NCBI GenBank assembly: GCA_018714695.1
Contig: DVNB01000032.1
Location: forward strand, 1-43,313
Length of the DNA stretch: 43,313 bases
Origin: Candidatus Ornithomonoglobus merdipullorum
Lineage (GTDB): Bacteria > Bacillota > Clostridia > UBA1381
Reading direction: 5' to 3'
How positions within the stretch are numbered: the stretch's first letter is position 1; every line of letters starts with the position of its first letter. Below are positions 32,538 to 43,313 of this stretch, piece after piece. Below the pieces are notes generated by a model that did no database searches, was not told the origin of the DNA, and saw only the letters and a list, made by a program, of their open reading frames with translations. Both the position numbers and the translations under genes were made by a program.

Positions 32538-34604
32538 TTACATTGGGCCGCCGCCACCGCCGGGTGCGCCGCCGCCGCCGCCGCCGGGCATTCCTCCGCC
32601 CATGCCGCCACCGCCGCCGGGCATTCCTCCGCCCATGCCGCCACCGCCGCCGGACATGCCGCCCATACCGCCCATGCCGCCTTGCATCTGCGTGGTGCTG
32701 CTGTCAACGGTGCCTTGAGCCTCATTGCCGCTCGCCGAAATTGAGCCGCATACTACATCACCCTCGTTAAGTCCGGATTTTATCTCTATATATACCGAAT
32801 CGGTAATTCCGGTTTCAACATCTACACTGTAATAGCCTTCCGGAGCATTGTCGCTTTCATCTGTCTTTTCGCCCTGAACATATACGATGTTTCCGCGCTG
32901 CACAGCTTCGACAGGAACAGCCAACACATCCTCCGAGCTCTCAACTGTTATTACACAGTCAACATTCATTCCGGGCAGCAGGTCGCCGTATTCCGTTATA
33001 ACTATGTCAACCGGATACGTTGTTACTCCGTTTTCCGAAGTACCGTTTACTCCTACCTTCTCGACCGTGCCGGTAAAAGTGCCTTCCACCGCATCGGCGG
33101 TGATCGTTACCTCCTGACCTGTCTGTATATCCTGAACATCCGTCTCGTCCACCGAAAGCTGTACCTTAAGAGTTGACATATCGTATATCACAGCCATAGC
33201 CTCGCTTGTCGAGGACGAATTATTCTCCAGCTTGTCGCCCGCCTTCTTGTTCTTTTCTATAATTGTACCCTCTATGGGTGCGGTTATTTCATAATCCTCA
33301 AGATTTTCCTGTGCCCTCTCAAGCGATATCCTTGCATTGTCAAGACTGATCTGAGCGCTCTGGATATTCGAATCAAGCGAATATGTGTCATTCTGGATAA
33401 CAAGCTGTTCAAGCTGATTATACGCGTCATCCCTTGAACGCTCGGCACTTTCAAGCTGCTCCTTAGCGCTCTCGAGAGCATCCTCAACCGTGGATGAGGT
33501 TATATATCCTATCACCTGTCCCTCGGTTATAACATCATTTTCCTGGAGATACAATTCTCCTATCCTGCCGCTGCTCCTTGCGGTTATATATCCCTCATCA
33601 TAATACTCAAAAGTTCCAAGATCGTTGCACGCCGCACCGTTTACGACTGCCGTTGCGCTGTCCTCGGTCGTAAGTCCTCCGGGATTATCTACCACTATGA
33701 TCACATACCGCACGATCGCATGCGAGCTTGTCGCCTGCGTCGCCGTTCCAACAGTCTCAACAGTTCCTGCAACTGTATCGCCGGATGACGCTATGGTCAG
33801 CACCGCAGAGTCACCGACACTTATCGTATCCGCATCCGCCTCATTGAACGGAAGCTGTATCTTCAGTCTGCTTGAATCATATACCCTCGCAAGCTGAGTA
33901 CCGTCATTTACGCTGTCGCCGTTGTTTACAAGGACCTCAGCTACAGTTCCGCTGTAATTTGCGGTTATCGTCAGATTATCGTAATCCTCCTGCGCATCGT
34001 TCAGAGAACGTGCTGCCGAATCCACCGACGCCAGAGCATTCAGTATCGCATTCTGCTGCGACTGCTCGTTCAATGAATTCGTCTGGACCGTATTTGCCTT
34101 CTGGCGCACCGCATCGGCATACGTCTGCTGCGCCTGCACCAGAGAGTTCTGCGCAGTCTCAACCTCCTGCTGTGCGTCTGAAGAGTCTATCGTGTATAAA
34201 AGCTGATCCTTTGTTACAAGATCGCCTTCACTAAAATTATCCGAAAGGATCTCACCGGTAACAAGCGCCGTTACCTCATATGTATCATTCGCCTCTACAA
34301 CCGACGAACCGTCCACCGTTCTCGTGATGCTGCGCCTCTCTACGGTCGCGGTGGTATACTTGATCTCTTCGGTACCTCCGCCCGCCATTCGCCTCACAAT
34401 GGACACCGCCGCTACGGCTATTACCACCGCCGCGATTATAAGCAATACCACCGTTTTCTTTGACGGTTTTTTAAATTTACTCAGAAAACGTTTTACTCTT
34501 CCTCTGCTTTCCTCTCCGTCCTCATTTTCCCGCCCGTCCGAAGGCTTGCCAAGCTTATCCTCGCTCCGAGCTCTCCTTCTCTCCTTAACGGTTTTCATTC
34601 CCAT
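32538..34604 (-). CDS. MacA/HlyD-type exporter adaptor with Gly/Met-rich tail
   Basis: The 688-residue membrane-fusion protein has a charged cytoplasmic start, one transmembrane helix (about 52-70, KKTVVLLIIAAVVIAVAAVS), lipoyl/barrel-sandwich segments, two long coiled-coil parts rich in Gln/Ser/Ala, and beta-barrel segments such as GTIIEKNKKAGDKL. It ends in about 45 residues composed almost only of Gly, Met and Pro, encoded by 33-bp tandem repeats. The ATG at 34604 has AGAAGGAGG 7 nt upstream. A second in-frame ATG at 34682 also has GAGGAG and would add 26 residues. It is the first gene of the exporter operon. Confidence 0.9.
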   Translation of the reverse strand: MGMKTVKERRRARSEDKLGKPSDGRENEDGEESRGRVKRFLSKFKKPSKKTVVLLIIAAVVIAVAAVSIVRRMAGGGTEEIKYTTATVERRSITRTVDGSSVVEANDTYEVTALVTGEILSDNFSEGDLVTKDQLLYTIDSSDAQQEVETAQNSLVQAQQTYADAVRQKANTVQTNSLNEQSQQNAILNALASVDSAARSLNDAQEDYDNLTITANYSGTVAEVLVNNGDSVNDGTQLARVYDSSRLKIQLPFNEADADTISVGDSAVLTIASSGDTVAGTVETVGTATQATSSHAIVRYVIIVVDNPGGLTTEDSATAVVNGAACNDLGTFEYYDEGYITARSSGRIGELYLQENDVITEGQVIGYITSSTVEDALESAKEQLESAERSRDDAYNQLEQLVIQNDTYSLDSNIQSAQISLDNARISLERAQENLEDYEITAPIEGTIIEKNKKAGDKLENNSSSTSEAMAVIYDMSTLKVQLSVDETDVQDIQTGQEVTITADAVEGTFTGTVEKVGVNGTSENGVTTYPVDIVITEYGDLLPGMNVDCVITVESSEDVLAVPVEAVQRGNIVYVQGEKTDESDNAPEGYYSVDVETGITDSVYIEIKSGLNEGDVVCGSISASGNEAQGTVDSSTTQMQGGMGGMGGMSGGGGGMGGGMPGGGGGMGGGMPGGGGGGAPGGGGGPM
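32586..32651. repeat. Two 33-bp tandem repeats coding the Gly/Met tail
   Basis: Units at 32586-32618 and 32619-32651 are identical; a third, degenerate unit follows. Each codes eleven residues of Gly, Met and Pro. The identity suggests recent slippage and length variation between strains. Confidence 0.9.
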
Positions 34605-34870: not shown

Positions 34871-37429
34871 TTATTTAAATTTACGCTTGAGCACACATTT
34901 TTCGACTTCCTGCACCGTTACACCGTGTTTTCGAGCCGCTGACGCAACATCTTCATACTCAGGCTTCTCACGCACAATGTCGCCGTATACGCTTCTTTTC
35001 ACGGTTATCCTACCGTATTCCGTATCAACGCTCTCCATCTCGCAATGCATCACTCTGCGGCTGTATTTTGCATATCTGACACCGCGTGTAGCCGTATAAC
35101 GCAGCACGGCATCTATTACACTTTCAATCTTATCATCATGAGCAAGACAGGTAAGGAGCACGCCCGGTCTGTTCTTTTTCATGTATATCGGAGTATAAAA
35201 AACATCCGCGGCACCCGCGCGCTCTATCATTTCACGCGCAAATCCGAGCTCCTCCCCGGTCATATCGTCGATCGACGCCTTTATCTCATATATAGAATCG
35301 TTCGCGCCTTTATCGTCTCTGAGGAGCGCCGAAGAATAGATCGGTACATATGACGCCGTGGTCTCACCCTCTCTTACATCCGTTTCAAGGTACACACCGT
35401 CCCTAAGCTCCGATATCAAAAGCTCCGCTTCTCCGTTTTCGAAGATCGAACAAGGCACGAGCCAGCTTTTGCCGTACCAATAATCATCCGCAATAAGGCG
35501 TCCGCCCGAATACAGCTGGGCAGCATCGCCAACATAATCTATCTTCACAAATCCGTCTGCCGCTCCGGTCTTTATCCTATACGCACGGATCCGGCGCTCG
35601 CAGCCTATATTCAGCTCACAGTCATACTCATGGGGCGTATATTCCGTCTCCTCCAAGGATACAGTATGCTGCTTTTCCTCAGCACGAACTTCGTGCCTCA
35701 CGAAATTACCGGCCTCCCATTTCAAATACGAAAGGCACGCATCTCCCAGTCTGTAAAGCTCCTCCTCAGTCACTGCCGCGCCTTCTGTAAGATAGAGCTC
35801 ACCGTTTATCCTGTACAGATGACGCGCTTCACTCTCTGTGAGCACAACGAACCTTACTCCGTCCTTTGTTATGTCATGACCGTACACCGTCTCGTCCTCA
35901 AAGGCGAACTCCGGCTCGTTTACGCCGTTCTGTTTAAAGAAATACACTCCGTTCTGTACACACAAAAGCTGACATGTCGCATACCTGAGCTTTAAGCCGC
36001 CGAGACTTATATTGAACGGCAGAACAAAGCAGTCGCCGTTTCTAATCGTTAGTCCATTTTCCGGGAATACCATGCCATCAGCCTCGAACATCACGTTTTC
36101 GTGCCTTGCAAGCGTTTCAAGACGCTGATAATTATTTATGAACACAAACCCGCCGCTGCCGCTCTTTCTCATACTGTAACGCAGGCTCGTCTTATCGTTT
36201 TTGTCGTTTATCGGAGCCTCTGCAAAATACGCATCCATAGGCGCCAGAAGCTCCATAAAATCGTTTATAAAAAGATGCAGCTCCTTTAACAGCTTGTACT
36301 GACCACGCACAAGACCGTATTCACCCAATGCCGCCTGAAAATCATATGACAGTATTGGATAGTCGTTCGGGTAACCGGTTGCCTTTGACTCGTTAAATGT
36401 CGAGAGCTTGCCGATCTTGTTCGTGCCTCCGTGGTACATATAATAGCCGGGCATATTGTTTCCGCTCCCGAGCTTCACGAGCGCTAACGCATATATATCC
36501 ATCTCGTCTATTATCGGCCGCCTGTGATGAGTCACCTCTATGCCGCCGCCAAGCTCGCATGTCGCATACGGATACAGCTTGTAATCTATCCCCTTTGCGG
36601 CGGCCTCGGCATCGTCACCCTCTATTCGTATGAGATCGGCGCCTATTGCGCTGTCGTTACGCATTGCGTTAAAAAAATAGTTGGGCGACGGATCCAGCTT
36701 TCTCGTATGTCCGGTCCACGGCGCCTCGGGATATCCGCCGAACACCGGCAGCACTTCATATTTTGGTATCTCCGCACCGTAAATGCTGTTCCAGCCTGTA
36801 ACAGTGTATATAGGCGCGTCAAGACCTGCTTCCTTCGCAAGCTCCTTAAGCTTCAGCAGATGATCTCCGCCGTCAACGAGCTCGTTCTCAAGCTGCACCG
36901 CAACTATATTTCCGCCGTTTTTATACATAAGATCCGCTACCTGTTCGGCTATTGCTCCGTACCATCCGCGGACGATCTCCAGATACCGTTCGTCATTGCA
37001 TCTGAGCGGTATACCCTTTTTCAAGAGCCAGTCCGGGAATCCGCCGTTCCGGCATTCGCCGTGCGCCCACGGTCCGATCCTGAGCACAACATCAAGTCCG
37101 CACTGCTTGCACAGCTTTATAAATGCCCTCACGTCGTTATCTCCCGTGAAGTCTCGCTCACCCTCGATCTCCTCGTTATATATCCACAGCATATATGTGG
37201 AAACAAGCGTTATCCCGCCCGCCTTCATCTTCAGAAGCTCACGTCTCCATTCGCTCCGTCTTACGCGCTGGAAATGTATCTCGCCCATCACCGGTATGTA
37301 CGGCTTGCCGTCACGTATCAGATAACGGCTGTTAAGCGTTATGCTGCCGCCGTCCGGCGCATCACCTCCGAGATTCAAATGTCCCTCAAGCACCTCCGGA
37401 TGCTCACTCATGTCAAATTTGTATATCAT
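34871..37429 (-). CDS. GH35 beta-galactosidase-like protein fused to a LarC C-terminal domain
   Basis: The 852-residue protein starts with a GH35 (beta-galactosidase) TIM barrel: GEIHFQRVRRSEWRRELLKM near 49, RIGPWAHGECRNGGFPDWL near 117, the likely acid/base Glu183 in VQLENEL, and the likely nucleophile Glu292 in TCELGGG. Beta-rich domains reach to about 700. Residues 709-849 are clearly not GH35: IDDMTGEELG, ADVFYTPIYMKKNRPGVLLT, RGVRYAKYSRR and KPEYEDVASAARKHGV in order match the C-terminal (LarC2, CTP/nickel-binding) half of the nickel-pincer cofactor protein LarC. The LarC N-terminal half is absent, and no larA, larB or larE lies in the window. The frame is continuous across the junction near 35305. 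There is no signal peptide, so it should be cytoplasmic. Start: GGAGAG 6 nt upstream. Confidence 0.88.
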   Translation of the reverse strand: MIYKFDMSEHPEVLEGHLNLGGDAPDGGSITLNSRYLIRDGKPYIPVMGEIHFQRVRRSEWRRELLKMKAGGITLVSTYMLWIYNEEIEGERDFTGDNDVRAFIKLCKQCGLDVVLRIGPWAHGECRNGGFPDWLLKKGIPLRCNDERYLEIVRGWYGAIAEQVADLMYKNGGNIVAVQLENELVDGGDHLLKLKELAKEAGLDAPIYTVTGWNSIYGAEIPKYEVLPVFGGYPEAPWTGHTRKLDPSPNYFFNAMRNDSAIGADLIRIEGDDAEAAAKGIDYKLYPYATCELGGGIEVTHHRRPIIDEMDIYALALVKLGSGNNMPGYYMYHGGTNKIGKLSTFNESKATGYPNDYPILSYDFQAALGEYGLVRGQYKLLKELHLFINDFMELLAPMDAYFAEAPINDKNDKTSLRYSMRKSGSGGFVFINNYQRLETLARHENVMFEADGMVFPENGLTIRNGDCFVLPFNISLGGLKLRYATCQLLCVQNGVYFFKQNGVNEPEFAFEDETVYGHDITKDGVRFVVLTESEARHLYRINGELYLTEGAAVTEEELYRLGDACLSYLKWEAGNFVRHEVRAEEKQHTVSLEETEYTPHEYDCELNIGCERRIRAYRIKTGAADGFVKIDYVGDAAQLYSGGRLIADDYWYGKSWLVPCSIFENGEAELLISELRDGVYLETDVREGETTASYVPIYSSALLRDDKGANDSIYEIKASIDDMTGEELGFAREMIERAGAADVFYTPIYMKKNRPGVLLTCLAHDDKIESVIDAVLRYTATRGVRYAKYSRRVMHCEMESVDTEYGRITVKRSVYGDIVREKPEYEDVASAARKHGVTVQEVEKCVLKRKFK

Positions 37430-37480: not shown

Positions 37481-37509
37481 AGTATACACCGTTACGCGCA
37501 ATTTTTCAA
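37481..37509 (-). promoter_or_regulatory. Promoter of the GH35-LarC gene
   Basis: On the minus strand TTGAAA (37504-37509), a 17-nt spacer and TATACT (37481-37486). The palindrome CCATATATGG (37471-37480) lies directly at the expected transcription start and could be an operator. Confidence 0.7.
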
Positions 37510-37578
37510 GCCCTATTATTGCTCACATAATACAAAATTATTGCGCAGTCACAGTGTTGACATTACAGTCGTGTTGTG

Positions 37579-37719: not shown

Positions 37720-38967
37720 TCATTCTTCTCTTTTCTCCTCGGCATCCTCGTCGAGTCCCTGTATGTATTCGTCGATAGCATCAGCGACAAGCTTTGAATA
37801 CTTGACCGCCTCAACCACAGTTCTCGCTCCGTTTACAACATCGCCCGATGCGAATATGCCGTCACGAGTCGTCTCTCCGAACGTGTTCGTCACAAGCAGT
37901 CCGCGGTCCGTAACGTCGAGCCCGCCGGTGTTCGCTACGAGCATATTGTCAGCACCCTGACTTATCGCGATTATTGTGCTGTCCGCTTTCTCAAGATGCT
38001 CCGTTCCCGGTATTCTTGAAAGATGTCCCTTTCCGTCACATTCCAGTTCCGCGAAGATAACGCCTTCGTCTACGATCTCGACAGGTTCTATATGCATCTT
38101 GAAAGTTACACCTTCAAGCTTCGCATAGTTCACCTCGTGCTCACTCGCAGCGAAATAGTCGTGTCTGGAATAGATAGTCACATCTCTTGCTCCGTGACGC
38201 AGCGCTGTTCTCGCAACGTCCATTGCCGAGTTTCCGGCACCTATGATATTTACCTTTTCACCGAGCCTGTAAACATCGGGGTTTGTCAGATAGTTTATCG
38301 CATAATGCACATTGCCCAAGGACTCTCCCTTTATATGAAGCGTGTTCGGCCTCCAAACACCTATACCTATGAACACAGCAAGATAACCGTCTCTGAACAG
38401 ATCGTCTATCTTGATGCTTCCGCCCACAAGCGTGTTCGGACGTATCTTTATGCCGAGCTCATAAAGTCTCTCCTTGTACCGGTCAAGTATCGACTTTGGA
38501 AGTCTAAACTCCGGTATTCCGTAGCGCAGTACTCCGCCTATCTGCTCCTTGCCCTCGAATATCGTTATATCATATCCGCGTCTCGCAAGTATTATAGCGA
38601 TCGTTATACCCGCGGGGCCGGAACCTATTATCGCGACCTTTTTTCCGTTCTTTTCAATGTCGCCAAATTCCAGTCTGTCAAAATAGTAGTCCGACACGTA
38701 ATTCTCTATGTATGATGCGTGCACCGGAGAACCCTTTCTGTTCAAAACACAGTGTCCCTCACACTGATTTTCATGGTTGCATATAAGCGAACAGATAAGC
38801 GACAGCGGATTGTTTTCGAACAGCATTTTCCCGGCTGCGTCTATATCTCCGTCAAGCAATGTTCTGATCATCTTCGGAATAGGCGTATGTATAGGACAGC
38901 CCTCCATACACATAGGCTTTTTGCAGTTCAAACACCGTTTCGCTTCGTTAAGTACATGATGTGCCAA
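37720..38967 (-). CDS. GltD-like NAD(P)-dependent Fe-S/FAD oxidoreductase
   Basis: The 415-residue flavoprotein resembles the small subunit of glutamate synthase and the NfnB/dihydropyrimidine-dehydrogenase-type electron-transfer subunits. Cysteines in RCLNCKKPMCMEGCPI and NQCEGHC form two [4Fe-4S] sites. VAIIGSGPAGITIAIILARR binds FAD, VNIIGAGNSAMDVARTALRH binds NAD(P), and GIFASGDVVNGARTVVEA near the end closes the FAD site. No large glutamate synthase subunit is nearby, so it probably passes electrons to an unlinked partner. The start is a TTG with GGAGG 7 nt upstream. It appears to be monocistronic. Confidence 0.88.
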   Translation of the reverse strand: MAHHVLNEAKRCLNCKKPMCMEGCPIHTPIPKMIRTLLDGDIDAAGKMLFENNPLSLICSLICNHENQCEGHCVLNRKGSPVHASYIENYVSDYYFDRLEFGDIEKNGKKVAIIGSGPAGITIAIILARRGYDITIFEGKEQIGGVLRYGIPEFRLPKSILDRYKERLYELGIKIRPNTLVGGSIKIDDLFRDGYLAVFIGIGVWRPNTLHIKGESLGNVHYAINYLTNPDVYRLGEKVNIIGAGNSAMDVARTALRHGARDVTIYSRHDYFAASEHEVNYAKLEGVTFKMHIEPVEIVDEGVIFAELECDGKGHLSRIPGTEHLEKADSTIIAISQGADNMLVANTGGLDVTDRGLLVTNTFGETTRDGIFASGDVVNGARTVVEAVKYSKLVADAIDEYIQGLDEDAEEKREE

Positions 38968-41655: not shown

Positions 41656-43313
41656 TTACTGAGCATTCGCCAAAGGCGCGTTATTTGCATCATTCCATAC
41701 AAACGCCTTATACGAAGCAGCCTCTGAGCTGTTTGCTACCTCAAATGTCTCCGTTCCATCCGCGGCTACGCTCTTTGTCTGGAGCTGTACCGAAACGAGT
41801 GTTCCTGCTTCATCATATGCAGCAACATATACCGTCACCGAAGCCGCAGACTCGGTCGTGTTGGAAACCGTTGCCGCAGCCGTTCCTTCAGTAAGCGCAA
41901 AGCTCGTTGCCGTCAGTTCACCTGTCGGCTCCGTGATCGGGGTGTATTCAGCCGTTACTGTCATATTTCCCGTCACAACTGTCGATGATGTAAATTCAAC
42001 GCCATTAGCCATCCACTTGCCTGTAAATCCTTCCTTAGCCGGTACAGCAGGTATGTCAGTAACTGTTTCTCCAGAAACTACAGTCCTTGTAGCAACTTCT
42101 GCATCATCTGCCATAAATGTAACTATATATTCATCAGGCTGCGGAGCAGAATTCGCTATTTTGGCTAACTCAGTCATGATTATATTTGCATATACAGTTC
42201 CAAGCTCTACAGTATAATGATTGTGATCCGGATACCAGCTCTGCACCATCTCAAGTACAGTTGTAGGAGCTGTATACCCCTGATTTATTGAATTAGCCTT
42301 ATTTGACATTTCCTGTATCTGTTCAACAGTAAGATCTTGCTGTGCAAGACTTGTCAAATAATCATTTCCGAGTTTTCCTATATCAATTACATTGAGATCA
42401 TACTTTTCAGCAAGATTTTTAAGGAATATAACTCTACCATCATTTTCTCTTGAACAATCAAATGTTTTGGTTGCTTCATCATATGTTCCATATCCACTTA
42501 AAGGTCCATCAGGTGTATGAGTAAGGATAACAGGTATACCGCCTCTCTGGATTACCGGAAGCACATAATAGTATTCCATTAAAGTCTCATATGATCCGCC
42601 TTCATTAGCTTCTCTTGAATTTATACCCATATTTATCGTTACATAGTCACCTGGGTTAATGCTGAGGAGAACTGCTTCTACACGTGCTTGATTATAATAG
42701 TTTACTGAATCACGTCCGGCCATACCATGGTTATAATAAGCCGAGAATGTATCCTCATACATATCTTCAGTTACAGCATTACCCCAGCTGCAATACTCTC
42801 TTTCATCTACCCACTTCGAAGGATCACTCGCTTGAGCTGCCTTATCTTCATTGTATTTTGAATAATGACCTGAGTTCTTCGTTGTAGAATCTCCTATTGA
42901 ATATATAGCCGGCTTCTCCAATCTCGATTTCGCAGTTGCCTGAGATATCTCAAGAGATGTAATACTTGATCCAGCTTCAAAAGTTAAATCAAGAACTTCA
43001 TCACAGACTGCCACTTGGAAGCTGTCTCCTGTCTTGTTTATACCAGTTACAGCCGGTACATTTTCAACCACCTCAGATGTCATGTTCTGGCTTGTTGTGC
43101 TTACCTTTACATTATAGTTTCCATTAGGCACTCTAACCTTAAATGTATACGCAGCAGAACCTGTTATATCTGTTTCATTTACAGTTAATCCATCAATACC
43201 GGCAAATCCGTAATCAGAGCTATTCGAGAACATTGTATTTATAACCTGAGTATAGCCTTCTTCTGGCTCACCTGAACCAAATGCAAAACTAAGCCCATGT
43301 ATATTGACTCTCA
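41656..43313 (-). CDS. Secreted CE12-like SGNH esterase with InlB-type repeat, 5' end outside window
   Basis: The frame is open past the ATG at 43233 to the window edge, so the gene is 5'-partial. The order is an N-terminal jelly-roll-type domain (FAFGSGEPEEGYTQVI, then YTFKVRVPNGNYNVKV), an SGNH hydrolase domain, an InlB B-repeat (YIVTFMADDAEVATRTV through MTVTAEYTP), and a C-terminal beta domain ending near WNDANNAPL. The hydrolase blocks are GDSTT (Ser near 42887), NHGMAGRDS, MGINS and the Asp/His pair in DHNHYT. Carbohydrate esterase family 12, rhamnogalacturonan/xylan acetylesterases, is the closest fit, which suggests removal of acetyl groups from pectin. The catalytic part is visibly more AT-rich than the C-terminal part and the neighbours. 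Confidence 0.85.
   Translation of the reverse strand, partial: RVNIHGLSFAFGSGEPEEGYTQVINTMFSNSSDYGFAGIDGLTVNETDITGSAAYTFKVRVPNGNYNVKVSTTSQNMTSEVVENVPAVTGINKTGDSFQVAVCDEVLDLTFEAGSSITSLEISQATAKSRLEKPAIYSIGDSTTKNSGHYSKYNEDKAAQASDPSKWVDEREYCSWGNAVTEDMYEDTFSAYYNHGMAGRDSVNYYNQARVEAVLLSINPGDYVTINMGINSREANEGGSYETLMEYYYVLPVIQRGGIPVILTHTPDGPLSGYGTYDEATKTFDCSRENDGRVIFLKNLAEKYDLNVIDIGKLGNDYLTSLAQQDLTVEQIQEMSNKANSINQGYTAPTTVLEMVQSWYPDHNHYTVELGTVYANIIMTELAKIANSAPQPDEYIVTFMADDAEVATRTVVSGETVTDIPAVPAKEGFTGKWMANGVEFTSSTVVTGNMTVTAEYTPITEPTGELTATSFALTEGTAAATVSNTTESAASVTVYVAAYDEAGTLVSVQLQTKSVAADGTETFEVANSSEAASYKAFVWNDANNAPLANAQ

Follow-up and report, generated by a model that had tools for sequence, protein, structure and literature searches.

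Candidatus Ornithomonoglobus merdipullorum encodes a glycoside hydrolase whose C terminus resembles half of a nickel-insertion protein, and we examined how such a chain may have come about. LarC uses CTP to finish the nickel-pincer nucleotide (PMC11796402). The window, meaning the whole stretch of DNA that was analysed, comprises 43,313 nucleotides of contig DVNB01000032.1 from a draft MAG that is 86% complete (G000). Within it we observed the following gene and parts:

34871..37429, minus strand: GH35-LarC2 fusion gene, 852 aa, ATG start
35384..37429, minus strand: GH35-homologous part, residues 1-682, with the PF01301 match at 37-385, delimited by the ends of the unfused-homologue alignments
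36881..36883, minus strand: Glu183, presumed GH35 acid/base (QLENE), invariant in 14/14
36554..36556, minus strand: Glu292, presumed GH35 nucleophile (CELGGG), invariant in 14/14
35294..35383, minus strand: linker, residues 683 to about 710-712, between the GH35 end and the LarC2 match
34874..35299, minus strand: LarC2 domain, residues 711-852, identified by PF01969 and NF052512 and matched at 711-843 by 6bwo

The frame runs through its 852 codons without an internal stop, as the original prediction had it, and its N-terminal part assigns the protein by family to the presumptive GH35 glycosidases (PF01301, Glyco_hydro_35, at residues 37-385; E 6.9e-56, 190.6 bits, cut-off 27, Pfam). A complete GH35 enzyme had been proposed up to about residue 700. 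The PF01301 match agrees with the enzyme but the limit moves: when 22 GH35 homologues without a fusion were aligned by BLAST to residues 1-700, the alignments stopped at 682-687, which places the GH35 end near residue 682, with the linker behind it. Both catalytic glutamates had been said to be present; E183 and E292, the two Glu expected in GH35, are invariant across three fusions and 11 unfused GH35 sequences. A LarC2-type domain had been expected at 709-849 and was found with limits of about 711-843, by PF01969 (Ni_insertion) at residues 705-842 (E 7.3e-42, 144.3 bits, cut-off 22.1, Pfam), by NF052512 (nickel_LarC2) at residues 713-829 (NCBIfam, 125.2 bits, cut-off 50, over the whole model, 1-118 of 118) and by a PDB sequence match of L. 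plantarum LarC2 6bwo to residues 711-843 (E 1.4e-24). The PF01969 match takes up profile positions 237-374 of 375 only, i.e. the LarC2 half, and by this profile the fusion protein is not a full-length LarC with LarC1 and LarC2 in one chain. No internal start for LarC2 within the fusion frame was evident by eye.

The original prediction had suggested a search for other GH35-LarC fusions, and two more were found in the genus. G008 carries the same one-frame fusion with 852 aa and 78% identity to G000 (record CAJFNT010000152.1, uncultured Clostridia bacterium), and G004 carries it with 872 aa and 74% identity; their LarC2 parts score 124.9 and 122.1 bits, respectively, against NF052512 (cut-off 50). 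In all three species the fusion is flanked by a gltD-like gene on one side and an exporter adaptor gene on the other, which in the window are:

37720..38967, minus strand: upstream neighbour, GltD-like oxidoreductase, syntenic marker
32538..34595, minus strand: downstream neighbour, HlyD-type adaptor adjoining a MacB-type permease gene, syntenic marker

Because two further species of the genus carry a 74-78% identical fusion at the same locus, it is not a misassembly, and its presence at the same place in three diverged species likewise rules out a chance joining; the fusion frame is confirmed as genuine. Between the fusion species, dS for the GH35 and LarC2 parts is 1.4-2.0. We obtained dN/dS values of 0.10-0.12 for GH35, 0.09-0.12 for LarC2 (six pairs, of which G008-G007 gave no dS) and about 0.1 for LarC1, all of them rough since dS is high (1.4-2.4), and from these values GH35, LarC2 and LarC1 look to be under purifying selection. 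The linker gave 0.58-0.59 in two comparisons with G004 and 0.09 between G000 and G008. Elsewhere in the window, at 41656-43311, lies a large protein cut at the window end; at E 1e-5, Pfam gave nothing for its 525-aa part.

Among 95 genomes of the order and 101 relatives, no further GH35-LarC2 fusion was found, and a genome-contig scan with exact peptide patterns, which covered close relatives only, returned the G008 record as its sole fusion. The 95 genomes gave 55 listed LarC2 matches in 44 genomes: 39 full canonical LarC, three fusions, one free-standing frame (in G007), one contig-edge fragment (in G015) and 11 belonging to a divergent paralogue. No relative in which the surroundings could be read showed GH35 with an intact larC next to it, and five GH35 stretches in G001, G003, G005 and G006 contain no larC. 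In open-licence papers we found no glycoside hydrolase-LarC fusion in connection with nickel. Among the matches listed for 391 genomes of the class, four LarC matches lie in open frames of unusual length, 543-628 aa (G128:C23, G411:C58, G428:C5 and G391:C90), and are possible other LarC fusions.

If the fusion holds LarC2, where is LarC1? The survey of lar genes in G000 that had been suggested returned larB (287 bits, cut-off 175), larE and a LarC1-only gene; it gave no LarA over cut-off and no intact canonical larC among the three PF01969 matches of this 86%-complete genome. The LarC1-only gene (TIGR00299, 202.5 bits, cut-off 90) adjoins larE (242.8 bits, cut-off 150) on contig C90, which is distinct from the fusion contig. 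The same pairing occurs in G000, G004, G007 and G008 (4/4), with 201-207 bits for LarC1 (TIGR00299, cut-off 90) and 238-243 bits for larE (TIGR00268, cut-off 150). In all four species the LarC1-only gene ends in TGATAA; a T-rich stretch that looks hairpin-like by eye comes next, and behind it the same gene begins in each, a YdcZ-type transporter in G000 (Pfam). No LarC2 lies behind the LarC1-only gene in any of the four, with the G008 contig stopping about 185 bases later. This absence rules out that LarC1 is linked by frameshifting to an immediately following LarC2, and a search of open-licence papers for LarC together with ribosomal frameshifting and nickel found nothing.

We compared this arrangement across 16 genomes of the genus. 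LarC1-only genes occur in four of them and all four (4/4) also have a detached LarC2, a pattern that reflects one evolutionary event and not four independent observations; intact canonical larC occurs in eight, none of which (0/8) has a detached LarC2. The remaining genomes are uninformative, G002 and G009 having no match, and G013 and G015 paralogue-type matches only, plus the contig-edge fragment in G015. Invariant residues, defined from 30 full LarCs as 37 in LarC1 and 20 in LarC2, are largely retained by both detached halves: 36/37 by the split LarC1s, 18/20 by LarC2 of G000, G008 and G007, and 17/20 by that of G004. The residues that the fusion LarC2 lacks are N719 and C763. Since a separate LarC1 gene exists with no LarC2 behind it, the LarC2 tail is, in the simplest view, the other half of a LarC that was split. 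The original prediction had offered a choice between a glycosidase with a CTP/nickel-binding module and a glycosidase joined by accident to a free-standing larC2 gene. Both miss the separate LarC1-only gene of the genome; the second is right in so far as a free larC2 does stand at the site in G007. Four genomes of a single other genus in the order (G064, G073, G075 and G084) have LarC1-like genes without any LarC2 match.

We therefore think it probable, judging from the sequences, that larC was split and that LarC2, now the tail of a GH35 protein, acts in trans with LarC1. In the ancestor of the four species, larC would have been split at the LarC1/LarC2 boundary, with LarC1 left as a free gene behind larE and LarC2 landing between the gltD-like gene and the exporter operon as a C-terminal tail of GH35. 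We infer that the tail binds CTP and joins LarC1 in trans, and that nickel would thereby enter the pincer nucleotide; the GH35 part would either be carried along as a passenger or give the chain a second activity independent of the first. G007 would later have lost the GH35 part, larC2 surviving with a start of its own.

The direction of these events is suggested by the insertion site and by trees, which were built from draft MAGs that are 86-98% complete. In G003, a close outgroup with a 95% identical gltD, the site is empty, gltD being followed directly by the adaptor, and an intact larC lies elsewhere in a larE-larB-larC operon. In G007 the site holds a free-standing larC2 frame of 160 aa without GH35, and no GH35 of the fusion kind was found elsewhere in this 98% complete genome. 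The rpoB and flanking-gene trees join G004 with G007 and G000 with G008. A constraint grouping the fusion trio without G007 was rejected for rpoB (p-AU 0.023, 13 genomes) and for three flanking genes (p-AU 0.001, five genomes), in AU tests whose hypotheses were set after the trees had been seen. Because G007 falls inside the fusion group, it has probably lost GH35 and kept larC2. One fusion in the common ancestor followed by this loss is the simplest history, and two separate fusions are a possible alternative. The four detached LarC2 sequences form one clade (100/99) on a long stem of 1.32 changes per site, within which G004 and G007 pair with uneven support (98/55). Two trees depart from the species tree, with G000 beside G004 and G007 for LarC1 (87/84) and G008 beside G004 for GH35 (94/89); the fusion GH35 sequences form a separate sub-branch (100/100) in a tree of 25. 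A further larC1 follows larE and larB in G007 (L068:4893-5729, G007:C14); it lacks the LarC2 core but retains roughly the final 22 residues.

A different role for the tail was also considered. The LarC2 tail might have been recruited to regulate or assemble GH35, through CTP binding or oligomerisation, with nickel insertion lost or carried out by a paralogue on another contig:

G000:C13:14379-15560: divergent full-length LarC-like gene, LarC family match

This paralogue scores above the cut-offs of both NCBIfam models (135.2 bits for LarC1, cut-off 90; 58.4 bits for LarC2, cut-off 50) and could, on these scores, be a working LarC; because it does so, our confidence in the trans reading is lowered. 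It keeps 18/37 LarC1 and 6/20 LarC2 invariants, however, against 18/20 in the fusion tail, and without most invariant residues we think it an unlikely LarC substitute, despite its scores. Similar full-length or nearly full-length paralogues occur in 11 further genomes of the genus, with 5-8 of 20 LarC2 invariants in the five genomes counted. Because the paralogue coexists with an intact larC in 6/8 intact genomes, it arose neither with the split nor as a replacement. Co-option would fit the retention of LarC2 in frame with GH35 in three species, with a promoter-like site of its own and a repeat seen before carbohydrate genes, and it would fit the long LarC2 stem and the loss of two invariant residues. 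It sits poorly with G007, which retains LarC2 at the same place without GH35, and it would leave the LarC1 beside larE without a partner in all four species. We regard co-option as unlikely.

Selection might instead have coupled the two functions, sugar use and cofactor completion being tied through one chain or one promoter. Upstream of the fusion we observed:

37481..37509, minus strand: promoter-like TTGAAA-17-TATACT; by eye, G008 and G004 are arranged alike
37515..37544, minus strand: operator-like direct repeat GCAATAAT-N14-GCAATAAT, the sole exact match to the pattern in G000

Promoter-like sites number seven in the region, compared with a mean of 4.6 (sd 2.0) in shuffles, and are thus not clearly above chance. 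The exact pattern GCAATAAT-N12-15-GCAATAAT occurs seven times in the 16 genomes, compared with none for the reversed control and roughly 0.08 expected from the window base composition. Two of the seven precede the fusion, in G000 and G004, and the copy before the G008 fusion has one mismatch. Others precede a DUF5107 gene beside an AraC-type regulator in G005 (Pfam) and a GH115 gene in G008 (Pfam); two of the seven (G002 and G008) precede genes with the same DUF5107-type N-terminus (by eye), and one lies inside a frame (G010). From this company, the promoter-like site of the fusion may respond to sugar. The fusion in three species, with both presumed catalytic glutamates and dN/dS about 0.1 in both parts, would likewise agree with a true two-function protein. 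Yet G007 has neither GH35 nor the exact repeat and still has LarC2, the linker of G004 differs strongly from the others, and a looser scan of overlapping loci gave 22 matches and puts the repeat inside genes too, one of them G003 larE. On balance, selected coupling is rather improbable. That the fusion is a neutral relic or an assembly artefact without a role, as the draft state of the three fusion genomes might allow, we dismiss as highly improbable, given the same fusion at the same place in three diverged species with high dS and dN/dS about 0.1.

Strong larB matches occur in 13 of the 16 genus genomes, including the four split species (model-tested in G000, G003, G004 and G008). The original prediction had linked sugar release to a LarA-type epimerase, and this link is not supported: none of the 16 genomes has LarA over the PF09861 cut-off, three have matches below it, and LarA is thereby set aside as the partner in the genus. 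Because no LarA is over cut-off, the evidence that the genus needs the cofactor is indirect. PMC11796402 describes one analysis in which about 15% of genomes have larB, larE and larC without larA; in these, proteins other than LarA are presumed to receive the cofactor. The weak LarA-domain matches in G008 and G006 are DUF362 proteins (Pfam), and that of G004 aligns with both; DUF362 and the LarA domain belong to one Pfam clan according to part of PMC11770544. We located four DUF362 proteins:

L169:1506-2996 (G008)
L172:1391-3337 (G006)
L068:1378-2493 (G007)
L170:2889-4340 (G004)

These genes lie near larB in G008, near larE-larB in G006 and near larE-larB-larC1 in G007, and an ArsP_1-type permease gene stands behind DUF362 genes (Pfam-tested in G008). 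The proteins of G008 and G006 also have a copper-amine-oxidase-like N-terminus, and that of G006 a flavodoxin domain too (Pfam). The four aligned proteins keep His-x9-Lys-x15-His, with spacings of 10 and 16, a triplet that was picked post hoc among many invariant residues; His174, Lys184 and His200 of LarA have the same spacing, for which an excerpt of PMC11770544 is among the sources. A profile of the four proteins gave no match to solved LarA structures. As a lead, we propose the DUF362 proteins encoded close to larB as candidates for using the cofactor in these LarA-less genomes. The DUF362-type gene beside larB in G000 itself (L168:6262-7107, G000:C9) is missing about 250 residues in frame, including the DUF362 core and the His/Lys motif, and only its N-terminal domain matches (Pfam). 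Taken to its furthest extent, the picture would be of a two-protein nickel insertase with a glycosidase-tail subunit under a sugar-type promoter, in which cofactor completion depends on sugar and the user is a LarA-less DUF362-type enzyme with LarA cofactor-binding spacing; we offer this as a speculation of rather low probability.

How does the proposed split LarC compare with known systems? Like full-length LarC (PF01969), the G000 genome has both halves with nearly all invariants, but it has them on different contigs, with LarC2 as a glycosidase tail. In L. plantarum, larC1 and larC2 are neighbouring separate frames. G088 likewise has two frames, and its break falls close to the boundary seen here (profile 1-235 and 240-375); there they lie side by side, whereas here they are far apart, with LarC2 inside another gene. 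The L. plantarum LarC2 structures 6bwo, 6bwq and 6bwr match in sequence at 711-843, but the solved chain is LarC2 alone, with 149 residues. Compared with GH35 beta-galactosidase-like glycosidases, the fusion shares PF01301 over cut-off and the presumed catalytic Glu pair and differs in its C-terminal LarC2 extension and its separate sub-branch. For Anaerobutyricum, part of PMC7702098 names larC1 and larC2 genes but gives larC2 a LarB-like enzyme name, and we therefore place no weight on this example.

If the trans reading is true, LarC can function when its halves come from separate genes, even with a large enzyme of unrelated kind at the N-terminus of one of them, and the bulky GH35 N-terminus would limit the ways in which LarC1 and LarC2 come together to insert nickel. 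As a natural control, G007 shows which half of the fusion is retained. The lar maturation genes sit in genomes without LarA over cut-off, and the adjoining DUF362 proteins are a concrete candidate family for the use of the cofactor.
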